A program made the position numbers and the translations under genes. DNA of 64,000 nt from Deltaproteobacteria bacterium (lineage in GTDB: Bacteria; Desulfobacterota_D; UBA1144; Nemesobacterales; JAJCZQ01): the NCBI GenBank assembly GCA_029262335.1, contig JAJCZQ010000003.1:1-64000 (forward strand), read 5' to 3'. The notes under the pieces were generated by a model. It ran no database searches, was not told the DNA's origin, and saw nothing but the letters and a program-made list of their open reading frames with translations. The first letter of the stretch is position 1. Every line of letters begins with the position of its first letter. This document shows, in pieces, positions 2,081 through 55,190 of the stretch.

Positions 2081-2093
2081 AATCAATATTATA
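2081..2093 (-). promoter_or_regulatory. -10 element directly before the start codon (leaderless-type promoter)
   Basis: On the minus strand a perfect TATAAT (2088-2093) is followed by 7 nt and then ATG. No Shine-Dalgarno is present. The -35 is not obvious. Transcription would start at or next to the start codon. Confidence 0.5.
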
Positions 2094-4348: not shown

Positions 4349-4729
4349 TTAGAACTTCTGCTTGAAGTAAAGCAGCACGGAAACACTTTTTTGAAACAGC
4401 CCTTTGTCTTCTGTGCTCGCATCAATATTGGACCTTATAGGAATCATTGGAAGAACTCCGCCTACAAGGATTGTGTTTCTTGGTTTGTAATTTGGTTTAT
4501 TTCCCGTTGAGTAAAAATCAATACTCGTAAGGTCAAGCTCTGTGGATTTAAAAGGGTTTTCTTCCCTGAGAAACATACCCGTATCTTTATTTCTCATTGT
4601 TACCATTATAGGCTCACCAGGGTCGGAAACCTCCTGGGACACTCTATAGTCAGTGTTATCAGTGTTCTCCTCAGCCATTAAGCCCTGAGTAAACAGTAAA
4701 ATAAATGCCAAAATTGCTAAAATCTTCAT
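4349..4729 (-). CDS. small secreted hypothetical protein
   Basis: 126 residues with an obvious signal peptide (MKILAILAFILLFTQGLMA, then acidic sequence) and no recognised domain; the end (VSVLLYFKQKF) has the aromatic-terminated beta-strand look of an outer-membrane or periplasmic protein, but that is speculation. Upstream on the minus strand are TTGATT (4765-4770), a 16-nt spacer and TATACT (4743-4748), 13 nt before the ATG, giving a predicted leader of only about 6 nt and no Shine-Dalgarno. Confidence 0.55.
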   Translation of the reverse strand: MKILAILAFILLFTQGLMAEENTDNTDYRVSQEVSDPGEPIMVTMRNKDTGMFLREENPFKSTELDLTSIDFYSTGNKPNYKPRNTILVGGVLPMIPIRSNIDASTEDKGLFQKSVSVLLYFKQKF

Positions 4730-4742
4730 TTTTCAGTCGTCT

Positions 4743-4770
4743 AGTATATTTTGATTAAACCAAAAATCAA
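4743..4770 (-). promoter_or_regulatory. sigma70-like promoter of the 4349-4729 gene
   Basis: TTGATT (4765-4770), 16-nt spacer, TATACT (4743-4748) on the minus strand, with the ATG 13 nt further on. The predicted 5' leader is very short. Confidence 0.5.
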
Positions 4771-4796: not shown

Positions 4797-5570
4797 TTAT
4801 AAAATATTTAGGAAATTTATCACGGATTTATTAAACTCATCTGGTTTTTCCAGCATAACAAAATGTCCTGCACCTTTTATAATCTCCATTCTTGAATTAT
4901 CTATCAAATTCTTTAGACGTAAAGAATTCTTAATGGGTGCAAGTTTTTCTTCTTCTCCGGTGATTATGTAGGTAGGGACTTTTATTTTCAATAAAATATC
5001 GGTTGTATCAAATTCATTACATGCTGCAAGGTCATTAGCCGCAGTTTCCGGATTGGATTTCAATAGCAACTCTTTAAATTCAGCTTTTAATTCCAAAGGT
5101 GATGACTTTGAAAAAGAGTTTTCCGCTGCCATATCTGCAAAATCCTTAAAACTCTTTCTTGCAAGTTCTATCGCATGCCTTGTAACCCTAATTCTTGGCC
5201 CTGTGCCTACAAGTACCGAACCGATTACATTCTGAGGGTAATCAACAAGACTTACCTGCGTGATTCTGCCGCCCATTGAATGTCCTACGAGTACATATTC
5301 TTTTATCTCCATCTTCTTTATAAAAGAGTGAATAAAATCTGAATACTCTTTTATTGTTTTAAATCCTGTACTATCCGATTTCCCATGCCCCGGCAGGTCA
5401 ATAAATATAAAATTATAATTGTCTAATTTTTCGGATAATCTGAACTGGTACTTCCAGCAGTGAGAACTTTGCCCTGCGCCGTGTATAAAAATCACAACAG
5501 GCAAATCTTTTTCTAATGTGCCGAATAAATGGAAATGAGTTTTTATTCCATCAATAATTTCAAAAGGCAT
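4797..5570 (-). CDS. alpha/beta hydrolase
   Basis: A 257-residue alpha/beta-hydrolase-fold enzyme. The oxyanion-side HGAG motif is near residue 30, the nucleophile elbow GHSMGG near 97-102, an acid-strand region TYIITGEEEKLAP near 202, and the catalytic histidine in GAGHFVMLEKP near 237. The substrate is not predictable; relatives include esterases, lactonases and C-C hydrolases. It is the last gene of a minus-strand run that starts at maf and begins 5 nt after the yggT stop. Confidence 0.85.
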   Translation of the reverse strand: MPFEIIDGIKTHFHLFGTLEKDLPVVIFIHGAGQSSHCWKYQFRLSEKLDNYNFIFIDLPGHGKSDSTGFKTIKEYSDFIHSFIKKMEIKEYVLVGHSMGGRITQVSLVDYPQNVIGSVLVGTGPRIRVTRHAIELARKSFKDFADMAAENSFSKSSPLELKAEFKELLLKSNPETAANDLAACNEFDTTDILLKIKVPTYIITGEEEKLAPIKNSLRLKNLIDNSRMEIIKGAGHFVMLEKPDEFNKSVINFLNIL

Positions 5571-12367: not shown

Positions 12368-13423
12368 CTAAAATAGTTTCTCCTGCTTATCCTCAGGGTT
12401 CCTGAAATGCTTTGTTGAGAGTAATAATTTTTTGTTTGTTAAACCATTTCGTTTGCATGCAAGTTTAAACATATCTTTAACCTGCTCTGCAAAAATCCCG
12501 TCGCCAACCATGCGGTTGCCAAATTCTGCGCTGTTAAGTTTGCCTTTCCTTAGGGATTTAATTCTGTTTAAGATTTTGTTTTTTCTGTTTGGATAGTGTG
12601 TTTCTATCCACTCAACAAACAGATCAGATACCGAGTATGGAAGCCTGAGCATTACATAGGCGGCCCTTTTGGCCCCTGCATTAACAGCGGCTTCAATAAT
12701 TTTTGGCATTTCATGGTCTGTTAAACCCGGAATTACCGGGGCAACCAGTGCCATTACAGGTATTCCGGCATTTGTTAGTTCTTCTATGGCTTTTAACCTG
12801 AGAAATGGCCTGGATGTCCTGGGTTCCATAAGTCCTGCGAGTTTTTCGTCAAGAGTAGTCACCGAGATAACTGCAAGCACAGCATTAAATGATGCAAATT
12901 CTTTGAGCAATTCTATATCGCGTGTTATCAGGTGGTTTTTTGTAATTAGCCCGACCGGGTTTCTGTAATCGAGCAATACTTCAAGACATTTCCTGGTTAT
13001 TTTGAAATGTTTTTCTGCAGGCTGGTAACAGTCAGTGTTTCCGCTGATAGCAACTGTCTGTGGTTTCCATTTCTTTTTACCCAGTTCATTTCGTAATAGT
13101 TCAGGGGCATTTTGTTTTACAAAAATCTGAGTTTCAAAATCAATTCCTGCCGATAATCCTAAGAATTCGTGCGTTGGACGGGCATAGCAGTATACACATC
13201 CATGCTCACACCCCCTGTATGGATTAATCCCTGCATCAAATCCGGTATCGGGACTGTCATTGTAAGTGATTATGGATTTTGATGTGTCATTGTAAAAGAG
13301 GGTTTTAGGTTTTTTCTCATTTCCTAATTCTTCCTCTGCAATCTCAAATTCGAGTTTCTCAAACCGGTTTAACGGGTTTGAGCCTGCCCCCCTTCCTTTG
13401 AGTTTCTTTCCGGTTTTTTTCAT
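12368..13423 (-). CDS. PA0069/Rv2578c-type radical SAM protein (SPL-like)
   Basis: A 351-residue radical SAM protein of the PA0069/Rv2578c family, related to spore photoproduct lyase. It carries the three cluster-binding cysteines at C72, C76 and C79 (CEHGCVYC) preceded by GINPYRG, and continues with the ISGNTDCYQPAEKHFKITR and LITKNHLITRDIELL blocks typical of the family. The reaction is unknown; DNA repair has been suggested by similarity only. A perfect TATAAT (13432-13437) lies 8 nt upstream of its ATG with no Shine-Dalgarno. It is divergent from the arsR-type gene. Confidence 0.88.
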   Translation of the reverse strand: MKKTGKKLKGRGAGSNPLNRFEKLEFEIAEEELGNEKKPKTLFYNDTSKSIITYNDSPDTGFDAGINPYRGCEHGCVYCYARPTHEFLGLSAGIDFETQIFVKQNAPELLRNELGKKKWKPQTVAISGNTDCYQPAEKHFKITRKCLEVLLDYRNPVGLITKNHLITRDIELLKEFASFNAVLAVISVTTLDEKLAGLMEPRTSRPFLRLKAIEELTNAGIPVMALVAPVIPGLTDHEMPKIIEAAVNAGAKRAAYVMLRLPYSVSDLFVEWIETHYPNRKNKILNRIKSLRKGKLNSAEFGNRMVGDGIFAEQVKDMFKLACKRNGLTNKKLLLSTKHFRNPEDKQEKLF

Positions 13424-13431
13424 CGTACTGA

Positions 13432-13437
13432 ATTATA
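13432..13437 (-). promoter_or_regulatory. -10 element 8 nt before the radical SAM gene start
   Basis: TATAAT on the minus strand, 8 nt from ATG (13421-13423), without a Shine-Dalgarno. Predicts a leaderless or nearly leaderless transcript. Confidence 0.5.
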
Positions 13438-13475: not shown

Positions 13476-13504
13476 TTGACACTTTTATTCCAGCAATTTA
13501 TATT
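13476..13504 (+). promoter_or_regulatory. near-consensus sigma70 promoter giving a leaderless arsR-type mRNA
   Basis: TTGACA (13476-13481), a 17-nt spacer and TATATT (13499-13504), then only 7 nt to ATG at 13512. Transcription should begin at or next to the start codon. An apparent in-frame TTG start at 13476 is simply the -35 element. Confidence 0.75.
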
Positions 13505-13511
13505 AAACCTT

Positions 13512-13862
13512 ATGGTTAAATATAATGAGGCACAGCTTGATAGCTTGTTCGGAGCATTGTCGGACGGCACAAGACGAAAAATTATACAGAAACTTTCAAA
13601 AGAGGACTTAATTGTGACAGAGATCGCTTCTGATTTTGATATGTCGCTTCCGGCCGTATCAAAACACATAAAAGTTCTGGAAAGAGCGGGACTTGTTAAC
13701 AGGAAAAGGGACGGAAAAATCCACAAGATAAGTTATGAAAAGGAAGCTGTAAAAACTGCATGGTCCTGGATCAACCAGTACAGGGAGTTTTGGGAAAACA
13801 GTTTTGATTCACTTGAAGAATATCTCGATAAAAAATCATCAGGGGAGAAAAAAAATGTCTAA
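13512..13862 (+). CDS. ArsR-family transcriptional regulator
   Basis: A 116-residue winged-helix repressor of the ArsR family (SdpR/YczG-like type that accompanies AHSA1 proteins). The block LFGALSDGTRRKIIQKL is followed by the recognition region MSLPAVSKHIKVLERAGLVNRKRDGKIH and a C-terminal helix ending WINQYREFWENSFDSLEEYL. No metal-binding cysteines are seen. I start it at ATG 13512, directly behind a TTGACA-N17-TATATT promoter. Its 3' end overlaps the next gene by 8 bp, so it probably regulates its own operon. Confidence 0.85.
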   Translation: MVKYNEAQLDSLFGALSDGTRRKIIQKLSKEDLIVTEIASDFDMSLPAVSKHIKVLERAGLVNRKRDGKIHKISYEKEAVKTAWSWINQYREFWENSFDSLEEYLDKKSSGEKKNV

Positions 13863-15768: not shown

Positions 15769-15942
15769 CTTTTTATTAATTTTATCTATAAAGGGTTAAG
15801 ACTGTTTACGGAAGGGCTTGGTTTCCATATTCCAAAGGGATATATCTATTTTGCAATGGCGTTCTCTGTTGGAGTGGAGATGATTAATATTAAGCTGCGG
15901 TCAAGGATCAATAAACCAGTTAAATTGCACAAACAGTTGTGA
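15769..15942 (+). pseudogene. C-terminal remnant of a TerC-family membrane protein
   Basis: The frame from 15769 to the TGA at 15940-15942 has no start codon of use but encodes a segment with the TerC C-terminal signature: [20 protein letters not shown], then [13 protein letters not shown]. Intact TerC proteins are about 230-320 residues with 7-9 membrane helices; only the last roughly 55 codons remain. A TAA at 15766-15768 separates it from the DUF2461 stop. I read it as a relic of a deletion between DUF2461 and the next gene. Confidence 0.75.
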
Positions 15943-15948
15943 TATAAT
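15943..15948 (+). promoter_or_regulatory. extended -10 promoter 10 nt before the SRPBCC gene
   Basis: TGATATAAT gives an extended -10 (TGnTATAAT), with TATAAT at 15943-15948 and ATG at 15959. The predicted leader is about 3 nt and no Shine-Dalgarno exists. The promoter lies at the end of the TerC relic. Confidence 0.5.
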
Positions 15949-15958
15949 AAAATCTATT

Positions 15959-16489
15959 ATGCTTAAAATAATAAAATCACTTATAGTACTTTTAATAATT
16001 ATTATTGTCCTGTTTTTAGTAATTGGTATTTTTCTTCCAAAGGAGTACACAGTTTCAAGATCGGTAGTTATTGATGCTAATCCGCAGCAAATACATCCTT
16101 ACTTAAATGACCTTAATAACTGGCCCCAATGGTCTCCGTGGACAGAGAATGATCCAACTATGAAAATTACTTTAGGTGATATTACTTCAGGTGTGGGTGC
16201 TTCGCAGTCCTGGGTTGGTAAAGACGGGGATGGTTCCCTTTTATTTACACAAAGCAGTATTCAGGATGGCATTGATTATGATGTGGAATTTAATCAGGGC
16301 CAGTTTAAGTGTAAGAGTGCCTTTGAGTATTTACCCGAAGGCCAGCAGACAGATGTTATATGGGAAATGAAAGGCAAAGTGGATACTCCGGTCCTTGGAG
16401 GCTATTTTGCTGCCAAGATGGATTCCTGGGTCGGCCCTGAGTTTGAAAAAGGACTTCAAAACTTAAAAAAAGTGGTCGAGAGTAATTAA
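15959..16489 (+). CDS. membrane-anchored SRPBCC (polyketide-cyclase-like) protein
   Basis: 176 residues: one N-terminal hydrophobic helix (about 5-28) and a SRPBCC/START-like domain beginning YTVSRSVVIDANPQQIHPYLNDLNNWPQWSPW. The C-terminus GYFAAKMDSWVGPEFEKGLQNLKKVVE is typical of this group. The domain binds hydrophobic ligands; the role is unknown. The start is set by the promoter described just upstream. Confidence 0.8.
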   Translation: MLKIIKSLIVLLIIIIVLFLVIGIFLPKEYTVSRSVVIDANPQQIHPYLNDLNNWPQWSPWTENDPTMKITLGDITSGVGASQSWVGKDGDGSLLFTQSSIQDGIDYDVEFNQGQFKCKSAFEYLPEGQQTDVIWEMKGKVDTPVLGGYFAAKMDSWVGPEFEKGLQNLKKVVESN

Positions 16490-21398: not shown

Positions 21399-21426
21399 TT
21401 GAAAACATCCCTTCAAAAAGTATATT
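21399..21426 (+). promoter_or_regulatory. promoter immediately before ftsY
   Basis: TTGAAA (21399-21404), a 16-nt spacer, TATATT (21421-21426) and then 9 nt to the ATG at 21436. No Shine-Dalgarno lies in that interval, so ftsY is predicted to be leaderless or to have a 2-3 nt leader. Confidence 0.6.
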
Positions 21427-21435
21427 AATCATCTC

Positions 21436-22737
21436 ATGAACAGCTTATTAAACACAATCAACAGTTATCCCGCGGTATATGCAGATATATTTGTAGTTTT
21501 TGTATTGGCATTAATACTGTATTTATTAACTCTTTTTATCTCGAAAATCTTATCCGGCAAAGATGCCGAAACTGTAGAAACTGAACCAGATAAACAGATC
21601 AGTGCAACAGACCTCGAAGAAATAAAGACTGAAGTACCTCCACCGCCGGTTGAGGCCGATGATATTCAGGATGCATTTAAATCATCCGGGCCCGTGGTCC
21701 GGGAAACAGTTGTAACAGAAGAAATACTAACTGAAGAACCAATTGCCGAGATTCCTCCGGAACCCGAACAAGTAGTTGAGGAAGTTGTTGAAGAACCCGC
21801 ACCTGCTCCCGCTGAACCTGAAACAGTAATTTCAAGATTAAGAAAAGGGCTCTCTAAAACCCAGACCGGACTGTTTGGCAAACTTGACGGCATATTCTCG
21901 AGGAGTGAGATTGACCAGGAGACCTGGGATGAGTTTGAAGAATCTTTAATTTCATCCGATATAGGTGTTAATACAACAATGAAACTCAGGGAAGTTATTT
22001 CAGGCAGTAACCTCAATGACCCCTCTGAGATTAAGGATGCTTTAAAAGAAGAAATACTGAAAATATTAAAAAATGCTGAAGGCGGCATTTCGGAATTTAA
22101 GGCAAAACCAACGGTGATGATGGTTGCAGGTGTAAACGGTGTGGGTAAAACAACCACAATTGGCAAACTTGCCAACAAGTTTATTAAAGATGGCAACAAA
22201 GTAATGGTTGCTGCAGCTGATACCTTCAGGGCCGCAGCAATTGAACAGCTTGAGGTATGGTCACAAAGGGTAGGAAGCGATTTTATAAAGGGCAGTCCAG
22301 GTGCAGACCCGTCTGCTGTAGCTTTTGATGCTGTTCAGGCATCGCAGGCAAGGGGTATAGACCTCTTAATTGTTGATACTGCCGGAAGACTTCATACAAA
22401 AACCAACCTCATGGACGAGCTTAAGAAAATTAAACGTATACTTGGAAGAGAAATCAGTGATTCCCCACATGAAGTACTGATAGTGCTTGATGCTACTACA
22501 GGGCAGAACGCAGTACAGCAGGCAAAGTCTTTTAACGAAGCTATAGATATAAGTGGTATAGTCCTTACTAAACTGGATGGTACTGCAAAAGGCGGCGTTA
22601 TTATTGCAATAGCAGATGAACTAAATATCCCGGTAAAATATATTGGAATAGGCGAAGCACTCGAAGACCTGAGGGAGTTTAATGCAGAAGAGTTTGTTGA
22701 AGCACTCTTTGCAGAGGGTGATTCGACTGTTCATTAA
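21436..22737 (+). CDS. ftsY: signal recognition particle receptor FtsY
   Basis: A 433-residue FtsY with an unusual N-terminal transmembrane helix (about 16-36) and an acidic, proline-rich A region before the NG domain. The GTPase motifs are intact: G1 GVNGVGKTTTIGK, the ADTFRAAA box, G3 DTAGRLHT and G4 TKLDGTAKGG. It receives SRP-ribosome complexes at the inner membrane. It starts the ftsY-ribD-nadD-rsfS run directly behind a promoter with almost no leader. Confidence 0.96.
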   Translation: MNSLLNTINSYPAVYADIFVVFVLALILYLLTLFISKILSGKDAETVETEPDKQISATDLEEIKTEVPPPPVEADDIQDAFKSSGPVVRETVVTEEILTEEPIAEIPPEPEQVVEEVVEEPAPAPAEPETVISRLRKGLSKTQTGLFGKLDGIFSRSEIDQETWDEFEESLISSDIGVNTTMKLREVISGSNLNDPSEIKDALKEEILKILKNAEGGISEFKAKPTVMMVAGVNGVGKTTTIGKLANKFIKDGNKVMVAAADTFRAAAIEQLEVWSQRVGSDFIKGSPGADPSAVAFDAVQASQARGIDLLIVDTAGRLHTKTNLMDELKKIKRILGREISDSPHEVLIVLDATTGQNAVQQAKSFNEAIDISGIVLTKLDGTAKGGVIIAIADELNIPVKYIGIGEALEDLREFNAEEFVEALFAEGDSTVH

Positions 22738-41400: not shown

Positions 41401-41450
41401 AGTTAACCAAATTATACCACTTTATGCCAATTTATATAGCTTTTATGCCA
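41401..41450 (-). promoter_or_regulatory. dcw promoter with tandem MraZ boxes
   Basis: Read on the minus strand, TGG triplets recur at exactly 10-bp intervals (complements at 41427-41429, 41417-41419 and 41407-41409), with a fourth TGGCATAAA one further two-turn step upstream (41448-41450). MraZ binds such tandem TGG-containing repeats. The middle box forms an extended -10, TGGTATAAT, with TATAAT at 41411-41416. Initiation is predicted about 4 nt before the mraZ ATG. Confidence 0.7.
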
Positions 41451-41575
41451 TTTGATAACTATATAAAAATTAGGTTAGAATGTCAATGTAAGTTAAAGGA
41501 AATATTAAGTTTTTTGTAATAGACTTAAATTTTTAGCAAATGTATAGTCATTTAGGTAACTTAAAAGAGTAAATC

Positions 41576-48533: not shown

Positions 48534-49454
48534 ATGGAAGTAATTGTCGATCCACAAAAACCTGTAGATTTTTCAACATCAGCGGCTATCGGAAATTTTG
48601 ACGGTGTCCATCTGGGACATAAAGAGATAATCAGCCTGATAAACAGTATTGCAAAGCAAAAATCTGCCAAATCATGCTTATTGACCTTTGATCCGCATCC
48701 CCAGAAAGTGCTTGCAGGAAAGGATGTGTCATTAATTGTGCCTGTAAAAGAAAAATTAACACTGCTCGAGCAGGCCGGGGTTGATTGTGCAGTCTCACTA
48801 AAATTTACCAAAGAGCTTTCACAGCTAAGTGCCGAAGAGTTTGTAGAGAAGGTACTGATAAAAATCCTTAACATAAAAGACATTGTAGTAGGCCCGGACT
48901 TTATGTTTGGCAAAAACCGCTCAGGAAATGCTGCTCTGCTTAAGGAAATGGGTGAAAAATACGGTTTTGAAACCCATGTGATAAACCCCAGAAAATTAGG
49001 TGAAGAAGTAATAAGCAGCAGTCTTATCAGGCAAAAAATATCAGACGGTGAAATTACAAAGTTAAACAATCTCCTTGGTTATAACTATTTCCTCAAGGGG
49101 ACAATAATAGAAGGTGAAAAAAGAGGCAGGCAGATAGGATTTCCTACAACTAATATAGATACCCAGTGGGAGCTTTTGCCAAAACCCGGAGTATATGCAA
49201 CGATGGCGGTACTTAAGGGATCGCGTTATAAGAGTATCACCAATATTGGCTACAGGCCTACATTCGGCCATAATAAACTTTTGATAGAAACTCATTTGTT
49301 TGATTTTTCAGAATCTGTGTACGGAGAGGAAATAAAGGTCGAGTTTTACCAAAGGTTAAGAGACGAAAAGAAATTTGAAAGTGTTGATGAATTAATAGCA
49401 CGTATAAAAATTGATGTTGAAGAAGTGAAAAATATTTTAACAAATAGCGAATAA
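48534..49454 (+). CDS. ribF: bifunctional riboflavin kinase/FAD synthetase
   Basis: A 306-residue RibF that makes FMN and then FAD. The FAD-synthetase half has AIGNFDGVHLGHKEII (18-33) and TFDPHPQKVL; the kinase half has KRGRQIGFPTTNID and KPGVYAT. It follows a 154-bp gap after trkA and precedes aroE by 28 bp. Confidence 0.96.
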   Translation: MEVIVDPQKPVDFSTSAAIGNFDGVHLGHKEIISLINSIAKQKSAKSCLLTFDPHPQKVLAGKDVSLIVPVKEKLTLLEQAGVDCAVSLKFTKELSQLSAEEFVEKVLIKILNIKDIVVGPDFMFGKNRSGNAALLKEMGEKYGFETHVINPRKLGEEVISSSLIRQKISDGEITKLNNLLGYNYFLKGTIIEGEKRGRQIGFPTTNIDTQWELLPKPGVYATMAVLKGSRYKSITNIGYRPTFGHNKLLIETHLFDFSESVYGEEIKVEFYQRLRDEKKFESVDELIARIKIDVEEVKNILTNSE

Positions 49455-51385: not shown

Positions 51386-51685
51386 TTAAATATCCCCGGC
51401 ATTAATATTGTCATATTGTTTATGTGTGCCAATAAACCTAATATAAACAATTTGAAACTCATATTTTATAGCTACTACTAATCTGTAATCGTTACCTTTT
51501 ATGTTAAATACAACACGGTTCTTTGCAAGAAAACTGGCATTTTTGTATTTGCTCTTTATATCACTGGGTTTTTTCCAGGTTGCTTTTTTAACCTCAGAGT
51601 ACCAAGCCCTAAGAGGTTGCTCTGAATTTCTGTAGTTAGGATTATTCCAAAAATCCCTGAGCTTTTTTATGGCAATGATTCTCAT
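51386..51685 (-). CDS. higB: HigB-type mRNA interferase toxin
   Basis: A 99-residue HigB toxin of the RelE fold: MRIIAIKKLRDFWNNPNYRN at the start, the LRAWYSEVKKATWKKPSDIK helix, then NRVVFNIKGNDYRLVVAIKY and the C-terminal VYIRFIGTHKQYDNI. HigB cleaves mRNA on the ribosome. The toxin-first order with higA following immediately is the HigBA norm. A consensus promoter places the mRNA start at or near the ATG. Confidence 0.9.
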   Translation of the reverse strand: MRIIAIKKLRDFWNNPNYRNSEQPLRAWYSEVKKATWKKPSDIKSKYKNASFLAKNRVVFNIKGNDYRLVVAIKYEFQIVYIRFIGTHKQYDNINAGDI

Positions 51686-51690
51686 AAATC

Positions 51691-51719
51691 ATGTTATTCC
51701 CATAATGGGAATATGTCAA
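51691..51719 (-). promoter_or_regulatory. higBA promoter with HigA operator in the spacer
   Basis: On the minus strand TTGACA (51714-51719), a 17-nt spacer and TAACAT (51691-51696), then 5 nt to ATG. The spacer and flanks form a perfect 9-bp palindrome with a single-base centre (51695-51713), TATTCCCAT/ATGGGAATA. HigA bound there would block RNA polymerase. Confidence 0.8.
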
Positions 51720-53921: not shown

Positions 53922-54453
53922 CTTCCTGTTCCTCAAAAAGCTTCATATATTCCTTATCGGTAATTATGTCCATACTGCTCTCAAGACGGTCGAGAAAGAC
54001 TATTCCTTCCAGGTGGTCAAACTCGTGCTGGAATACCCTTGCAAGGAAATCATTTAGTATTTCCTTTTTATTATTGCCGAATCTGTCCATATATTTTACT
54101 TCGATTTCAATGTGCCTTGGGACTATCCCCCTTATCCCGGGGATACTAAGGCATCCTTCCCAGTCTTCTTCCATCTCTTCTGATACCGATATTATTTCAG
54201 GATTAATTACTTCATATGGGTCTATTTCCGGGGCGTCAGGGTATCTGGGGTTTGGGTATGAAGCCATCACAAATATTCTTAGTGAATGATCTACCTGAGG
54301 TGCAGCGAGGCCCACGCCGTTTGCTTCAGTGACAGTAATCAGCATATCGTCTATAAGCTTCTGTACTTCGTCGTCTGCAACGTCGTTTACTTCTTTTGCA
54401 ACTTCACGCAGAATTGGGTTTCCAAGCTCTGTTAGTTCAAGTATTTCAGACAT
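53914..54453 (-). CDS. def: peptide deformylase
   Basis: A 179-residue peptide deformylase. The three motifs are GVGLAAPQ (46-53), EGCLS with metal ligand C101, and HEFDH (H143, E144, H147). It removes the formyl group from nascent proteins. I start at ATG 54451-54453; a longer frame to 54522 runs beyond the family N-terminus. TAAAAT (54462-54467) lies 8 nt before this ATG and no Shine-Dalgarno is present. fmt is not adjacent. Confidence 0.95.
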   Translation of the reverse strand: MSEILELTELGNPILREVAKEVNDVADDEVQKLIDDMLITVTEANGVGLAAPQVDHSLRIFVMASYPNPRYPDAPEIDPYEVINPEIISVSEEMEEDWEGCLSIPGIRGIVPRHIEIEVKYMDRFGNNKKEILNDFLARVFQHEFDHLEGIVFLDRLESSMDIITDKEYMKLFEEQEDE

Positions 54454-54461
54454 GGAATATG

Positions 54462-54467
54462 ATTTTA
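54462..54467 (-). promoter_or_regulatory. -10 element 8 nt before the def start
   Basis: TAAAAT on the minus strand, 8 nt from ATG, no Shine-Dalgarno between. No good -35 is visible. Fits the leaderless pattern seen at other first genes here. Confidence 0.4.
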
Positions 54468-54806: not shown

Positions 54807-54854
54807 AAGTTATTAAGAATTATGATAAATATTATTTTCACGGAGGAAAGAGAG

Positions 54855-55190
54855 ATGACAGGTAACAAAAACTTTGAAATAAGGGACGTGAGAGAAGGGA
54901 CAGGAATTTACCAGCCTGCTTTTATAGATGTTCTTATAGGCAATGTACTTGTAAAAGGGATTGAAGTATACCTCGATGATAATGAAAATCCCCGTATAAA
55001 ATTTCCAGTCCATGAAATTAAAACAAGGTACGGCATATCTGAGATTGAAATTGTCACAATTTCTAAGGAACTAAGGGAAAGTATAGTATCCGAACTTATG
55101 GATAATTTTGAAGAACAAATATGCCCAAAGTTAACTAATGGTATAAAACCCATAGAGAAGAATGGTTACCACGAATTTTTACCAAGATAA
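54855..55190 (+). CDS. SpoVG-like small protein
   Basis: 111 residues from ATG 54855, which has GGAGG at ideal spacing; an upstream in-frame ATG at 54822 lacks one. The pattern FEIRDVREGTGIYQPAFIDV, LIGNVLVKGIEVYLDDNENP, RIKFPVHEI then VTISKELRESIVSELMDNF resembles the SpoVG fold (short beta sheet, then helix), though distantly. SpoVG proteins bind nucleic acids and affect division and regulation. The assignment is tentative. Confidence 0.5.
   Translation: MTGNKNFEIRDVREGTGIYQPAFIDVLIGNVLVKGIEVYLDDNENPRIKFPVHEIKTRYGISEIEIVTISKELRESIVSELMDNFEEQICPKLTNGIKPIEKNGYHEFLPR

Follow-up and report, generated by a model that had tools for sequence, protein, structure and literature searches.

Two probable modes of translation initiation, Shine-Dalgarno-led and near-leaderless, in a genome from an uncultivated phylum

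In this study, we found that the positions of promoters relative to start codons fall into two groups in a genome from an uncultivated bacterial phylum, which is likely to use two start modes, one led by a Shine-Dalgarno (SD) sequence and one leaderless or near-leaderless; the transcript 5′ ends and the ribosomal mechanism are inferences. An earlier note on the window (the whole stretch of 64,000 nucleotides analyzed here) had proposed these two modes, and they are supported by a bimodal promoter position, 5–13 nt before the start in SD-less genes and 25–44 nt in SD-led genes, that is common to relatives. The same note had called leaderless initiation at first genes widespread. An excess is indeed detectable, but that wording is too strong: it amounts to about 34 of 334 first genes (about 10%), at least one of the named examples (mraZ) has a leader, and two others (def and ftsY) are doubtful. 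The figure of about 10% is a minimum, since only −10 boxes near the consensus were detected.

From the 51 contigs of the same genome (2.09 Mb in total), we sampled about 714 kb and called genes with a coding-score gene finder, using neither SD sequences nor −10 boxes to choose starts. The 334 first genes were split by the presence of an SD 4-mer 4–20 nt before the start into 178 SD-less and 156 SD-led genes, and −10 matches were compared with local shuffles and with the same block read on the reverse strand. The signal is visible only after this split; counted together, the first genes show no useful excess (47 −10 boxes near the ATG versus 44). In SD-less first genes, 62 of 178 have a −10 at 5–13 nt, whereas local shuffles give 28.0 ± 5.2 and the reverse strand gives 30, so that the genome-wide enrichment of start-adjacent −10 boxes foreseen in the earlier note holds for this class and is lacking in the unsplit set. 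A −10 hexamer alone is nevertheless weak evidence: at a false-discovery rate near 45%, chance would account for nearly half of these calls. The window does not stand out from the rest of the genome, with the layout in 6 of its 16 SD-less first genes and in 56 of 162 elsewhere.

Composite −35/−10 promoters separate the two classes cleanly. Among SD-less first genes, 13 lie at 5–13 nt, where 2.2 ± 1.4 are expected (Poisson 6e-7), and no composite excess was found at 14–64 nt. The 156 SD-led first genes have none at 5–13 nt and 19 at 25–44 nt, with 4.8 expected. Moreover, TTGACA-like hexamers in front of the start-adjacent −10 boxes peak at spacers of 16–17 nt (16 versus about 4.8), a register that chance hexamers would not show. 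The two composite excesses, about 11 for the near-leaderless and about 15 for the SD-led genes, suggest a near-leaderless share near 40% of first genes, a value drawn from small numbers. Operon-internal genes gave no composite peak; their surplus of −10-like hexamers at 5–14 nt (19 versus 9.4 expected by the model) is put down to AT-rich start regions.

The genes of the window to which the earlier note had assigned a start-adjacent −10 and no SD were then read letter by letter, with the following features.

13476–13481, plus strand: −35 TTGACA of the arsR-type gene
13499–13504, plus strand: −10 TATATT of the arsR-type gene, at a 17-nt spacing from the −35 and 7 nt ahead of the ATG at 13512
13512–13862, plus strand: arsR-type regulator (PF01022, 6.7e-13) without SD, predicted leaderless
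13432–13437, minus strand: TATAAT, 8 nt before the radical SAM start at 13423, with a weak −35
12368–13423, minus strand: radical SAM gene (PF04055), divergent from arsR, a leaderless candidate on its −10 alone
2088–2093, minus strand: TATAAT, 7 nt before the start at 2080 of gene 1652–2080, with no good −35
15940–15948, plus strand: extended −10 TGA-TATAAT, 10 nt before the SRPBCC gene 15959–16489 (PF10604)
51714–51719, minus strand: −35 TTGACA of higB
51691–51696, minus strand: −10 TAACAT of higB (PF09907, 4.2e-34), 5 nt before the ATG at 51685
51697–51711, minus strand: palindrome TTCCCATTATGGGAA filling the spacer between the higB −35 and −10
4743–4770, minus strand: TTGATT-N16-TATACT, 13 nt before gene 4349–4729, with a short leader predicted
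21399–21426, plus strand: TTGAAA-N16-TATATT, 9 nt before the ftsY start at 21436, a doubtful case
54462–54467, minus strand: TAAAAT, 8 nt before the def start at 54453, weak and doubtful
41458–41486, minus strand: actual mraZ promoter TTGACA-N17-TATAGT, 57 nt before the ATG, conserved in 26 of 30 genomes
41407–41450, minus strand: MraZ-operator-like repeats (TGGYATAAAG family), found by upstream comparison and containing the TATAAT previously taken for a −10

The SD-less layouts described for arsR (TTGACA-N17-TATATT-N7-ATG), higB (TTGACA-N17-TAACAT-N5), the radical SAM gene, gene 1652–2080, and the SRPBCC gene are all present, and the short leader given for gene 4349–4729, likewise SD-less, fits its promoter. 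The best candidates are arsR, higB, and gene 4349–4729, which have complete promoters; that of arsR ties for the top score 4–13 nt from the start among the sampled SD-less first genes. The TTCCCATTATGGGAA palindrome in the higB spacer is a probable operator for autoregulation by HigA. Gene 1652–2080, the radical SAM gene, and the SRPBCC gene are candidates mainly through their −10, a kind of call of which about 45% would be expected by chance. For ftsY, the −10 and the missing SD are as described, but a co-directional gene precedes it by 57 nt, so that ftsY may not be a first gene. For def, TAAAAT-N8 without SD is likewise present, but the −10 is non-consensus and there is no evident −35. Several more first genes of the window (4797–5570, 48534–49454, and 54822–55190) lack both an SD and a near −10, so that a third class of leadered non-SD genes, with members besides mraZ, may exist.

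The case of mraZ turned out differently. The TATAAT-N10 reported for it is there, without SD, yet a conserved promoter lies 57 nt upstream of the ATG: TTGACA-N17-TATAGT precedes the mraZ ATG by 38–59 nt in 25 relatives. Between this promoter and the ATG are 10-bp-periodic TGGCATAAAG repeats that contain AAAGTGG, and the hexamer is part of them, so that it was rejected as a −10. With the promoter at 57 nt and the TATAAT inside the repeats, mraZ is leadered without SD and thus of the third class. In Mollicutes, MraZ sites are AAAGTG[T/G] direct repeats (PMC8475190). The likeness extends to direct AAAGTGG repeats with a 10-bp period between promoter and mraZ, whereas here the repeats are part of the leader and include the TATAAT mistaken for a −10. 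The whole control region, the promoter followed by the TGGCATAAAG repeats, is conserved phylum-wide (loci L236–L265 and window positions 41407–41486). Its promoter–ATG distances differ mostly by multiples of about 10 bp (38–39, 48–49, and 57–59), as if repeat units had been gained or lost. As a caution, mraZ demonstrates that a consensus −10 adjoining an ATG is insufficient without a −35 or conservation.

The proposed mechanism combines two routes. Many operons would be transcribed from a sigma-70-type promoter 25–45 nt upstream and carry an SD read by a ribosome with a normal anti-SD. A sizeable minority of first genes would instead have a −10 at 5–13 nt before the ATG and no SD, so that the transcript would begin with the start codon itself or no more than about 7 nt ahead of it. 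By analogy with Deinococcus or mycobacteria, such near-leaderless mRNAs might be read through recognition of the 5′-terminal AUG, a ribosomal property that we infer from other bacteria. The SD mode is intact: the 16S rRNA ends of relatives keep CCTCCT, and the genome encodes S21 and a multi-domain S1 protein. As this assembly yielded no 16S rRNA, the anti-SD was read from the relatives.

How short the leaders are bears on the most serious alternative, in which the promoters are real, the mRNAs have leaders of about 3–12 nt and are translated by an SD-independent route through unstructured leaders, and strictly leaderless mRNAs are rare. We regard this as possible, if the less probable reading. 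The spacing of start-adjacent −10 boxes is broad (39 matches at 5–9 nt and 27 at 10–14 nt), spacings of 9–13 nt imply leaders of a few nucleotides rather than strictly leaderless mRNAs, and typical start-site choice would place many 5′ ends a few nucleotides before the ATG. In addition, mraZ and its relatives show that leadered genes without SD exist, and the S1 and S21 proteins are present. However, the best-supported orthologue pairs have their −10 at 8–10 nt, which is compatible with leaders of 0–4 nt, and the promoter excess of SD-less first genes does not extend to 14–64 nt.

Comparison with other genomes points in the same direction. When relatives from five families were pooled, the composite signal was 14 versus 2.0 expected; it was absent from pooled samples of E. 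coli, Bdellovibrio, and Paenibacillus (2 versus 0.6). A sample of the same genus (G009) was too small for use, with only 18 first genes, and samples of Deinococcus MP1 and of the Thermus plasmid pTT27 likewise had too few first genes to act as a positive control. In the AT-rich family f8, the −10-only count equaled the reverse-strand control (24 versus 24), and therefore the composite signal alone was used for that family. In three genes, mutS (compared with family f2), trpE (compared with f8, of another order), and a Sir2 gene (compared with family f4), a −10 lies 8–10 nt before the ATG in both orthologues, and the protein starts align although the surrounding bases differ. Overall, 6 orthologous pairs of first genes, including the false mraZ case, were leaderless on both sides; with about 2 expected, the enrichment is modest.

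These comparisons make it improbable that chance produced the pattern, that is, that an AT-rich genome yields TATAAT-like hexamers near ATGs and that choosing SD-less genes mimics leaderless ones. Upstream of first genes, the G+C content is about 25%, shuffles account for about half of the −10-only matches, the plain count has no excess, and mraZ is exactly such a false case. Against this stand the twofold −10 excess over both local shuffles and the reverse strand, the −35 boxes in register with a sixfold composite excess, and the conservation of the layout in orthologues of less AT-rich relatives, together with controls without signal. Misassigned start codons, with true starts downstream behind normal leaders and a −10 only seemingly adjacent, are very improbable: def does have two candidate ATGs 69 nt apart, each preceded by a −10-like hexamer, but the start at 54453 is the one that fits peptide deformylase, the protein starts of orthologues align, radical SAM homologues align from residue 2–8 and put that start about right, the signal-peptide-like N-terminus of gene 1652–2080 supports its start, and the N-termini of arsR (fitting an ArsR protein), higB, and the signal-peptide proteins are typical of their families.

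The phylum is probably Dadabacteria. By FtsZ, the closest relative with a name (73% identity) carries the label Deltaproteobacteria bacterium. Genomes of the phylum's second order measure about 1 Mb, and 6 of 14 carry a rhodopsin gene; pelagic Dadabacteria have genomes of about 1.22 Mb, and of their two marine clades only one has rhodopsin (PMC8115339). Family f8 (G044–G057), the branch with genomes of about 1 Mb, has 1–4 S1-domain matches per genome versus 6–11 in the rest of the phylum; in one member (G052), the two matches fall in open reading frames of 701 and 435 aa, the sizes of PNPase and NusA. Multi-domain ribosomal protein S1 may have been lost or have strongly diverged in this family. 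It is a tentative thought, one that we would not favor at present, that near-leaderless initiation is an old, phylum-wide trait of this deep lineage, serves as many as about 40% of first genes, and persists in a streamlined marine branch in which S1 seems lost or reduced.

Leaderless genes have so far been mapped mostly in cultivated groups. Our literature search returned no report on leaderless genes in Dadabacteria; a single hit, on sponge microbiomes, mentions both words. The presence of SD-led and probable leaderless genes side by side in an uncultivated phylum has consequences for the annotation of start sites and promoters in its assembled genomes, as start calling based on ribosome-binding sites will misplace near-leaderless starts. 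The question of whether leaderless initiation is ancestral can also be put to one more lineage.

The design itself is already known from other bacteria; what is new is the lineage. Zheng et al. 2011 (PMC3160421) reported TA-led (leaderless) genes in 8 of the 33 delta-proteobacterial genomes, with a mean share of 15.8%. These genes share with those described here a TATAAT-like box about 10 bp upstream and the lack of an SD, and they are mainly single or operon-proximal, a bias that may hold here too; that survey used the genomes available in 2010 and apparently cannot cover this uncultivated phylum. In Deinococcus-Thermus, a −10 box 6–7 bp before the open reading frame replaces the ribosome-binding site, alongside GGAG-led genes (PMC12340547). 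Both systems thus combine a −10 adjoining the open reading frame, in place of a ribosome-binding site, with coexisting SD-type genes. However, in Deinococcus-Thermus the motif is TANNNT and concerns about one-third of all genes, whereas here it is nearer to consensus TATAAT, the detectable share is smaller, and the system is predicted from sequence.
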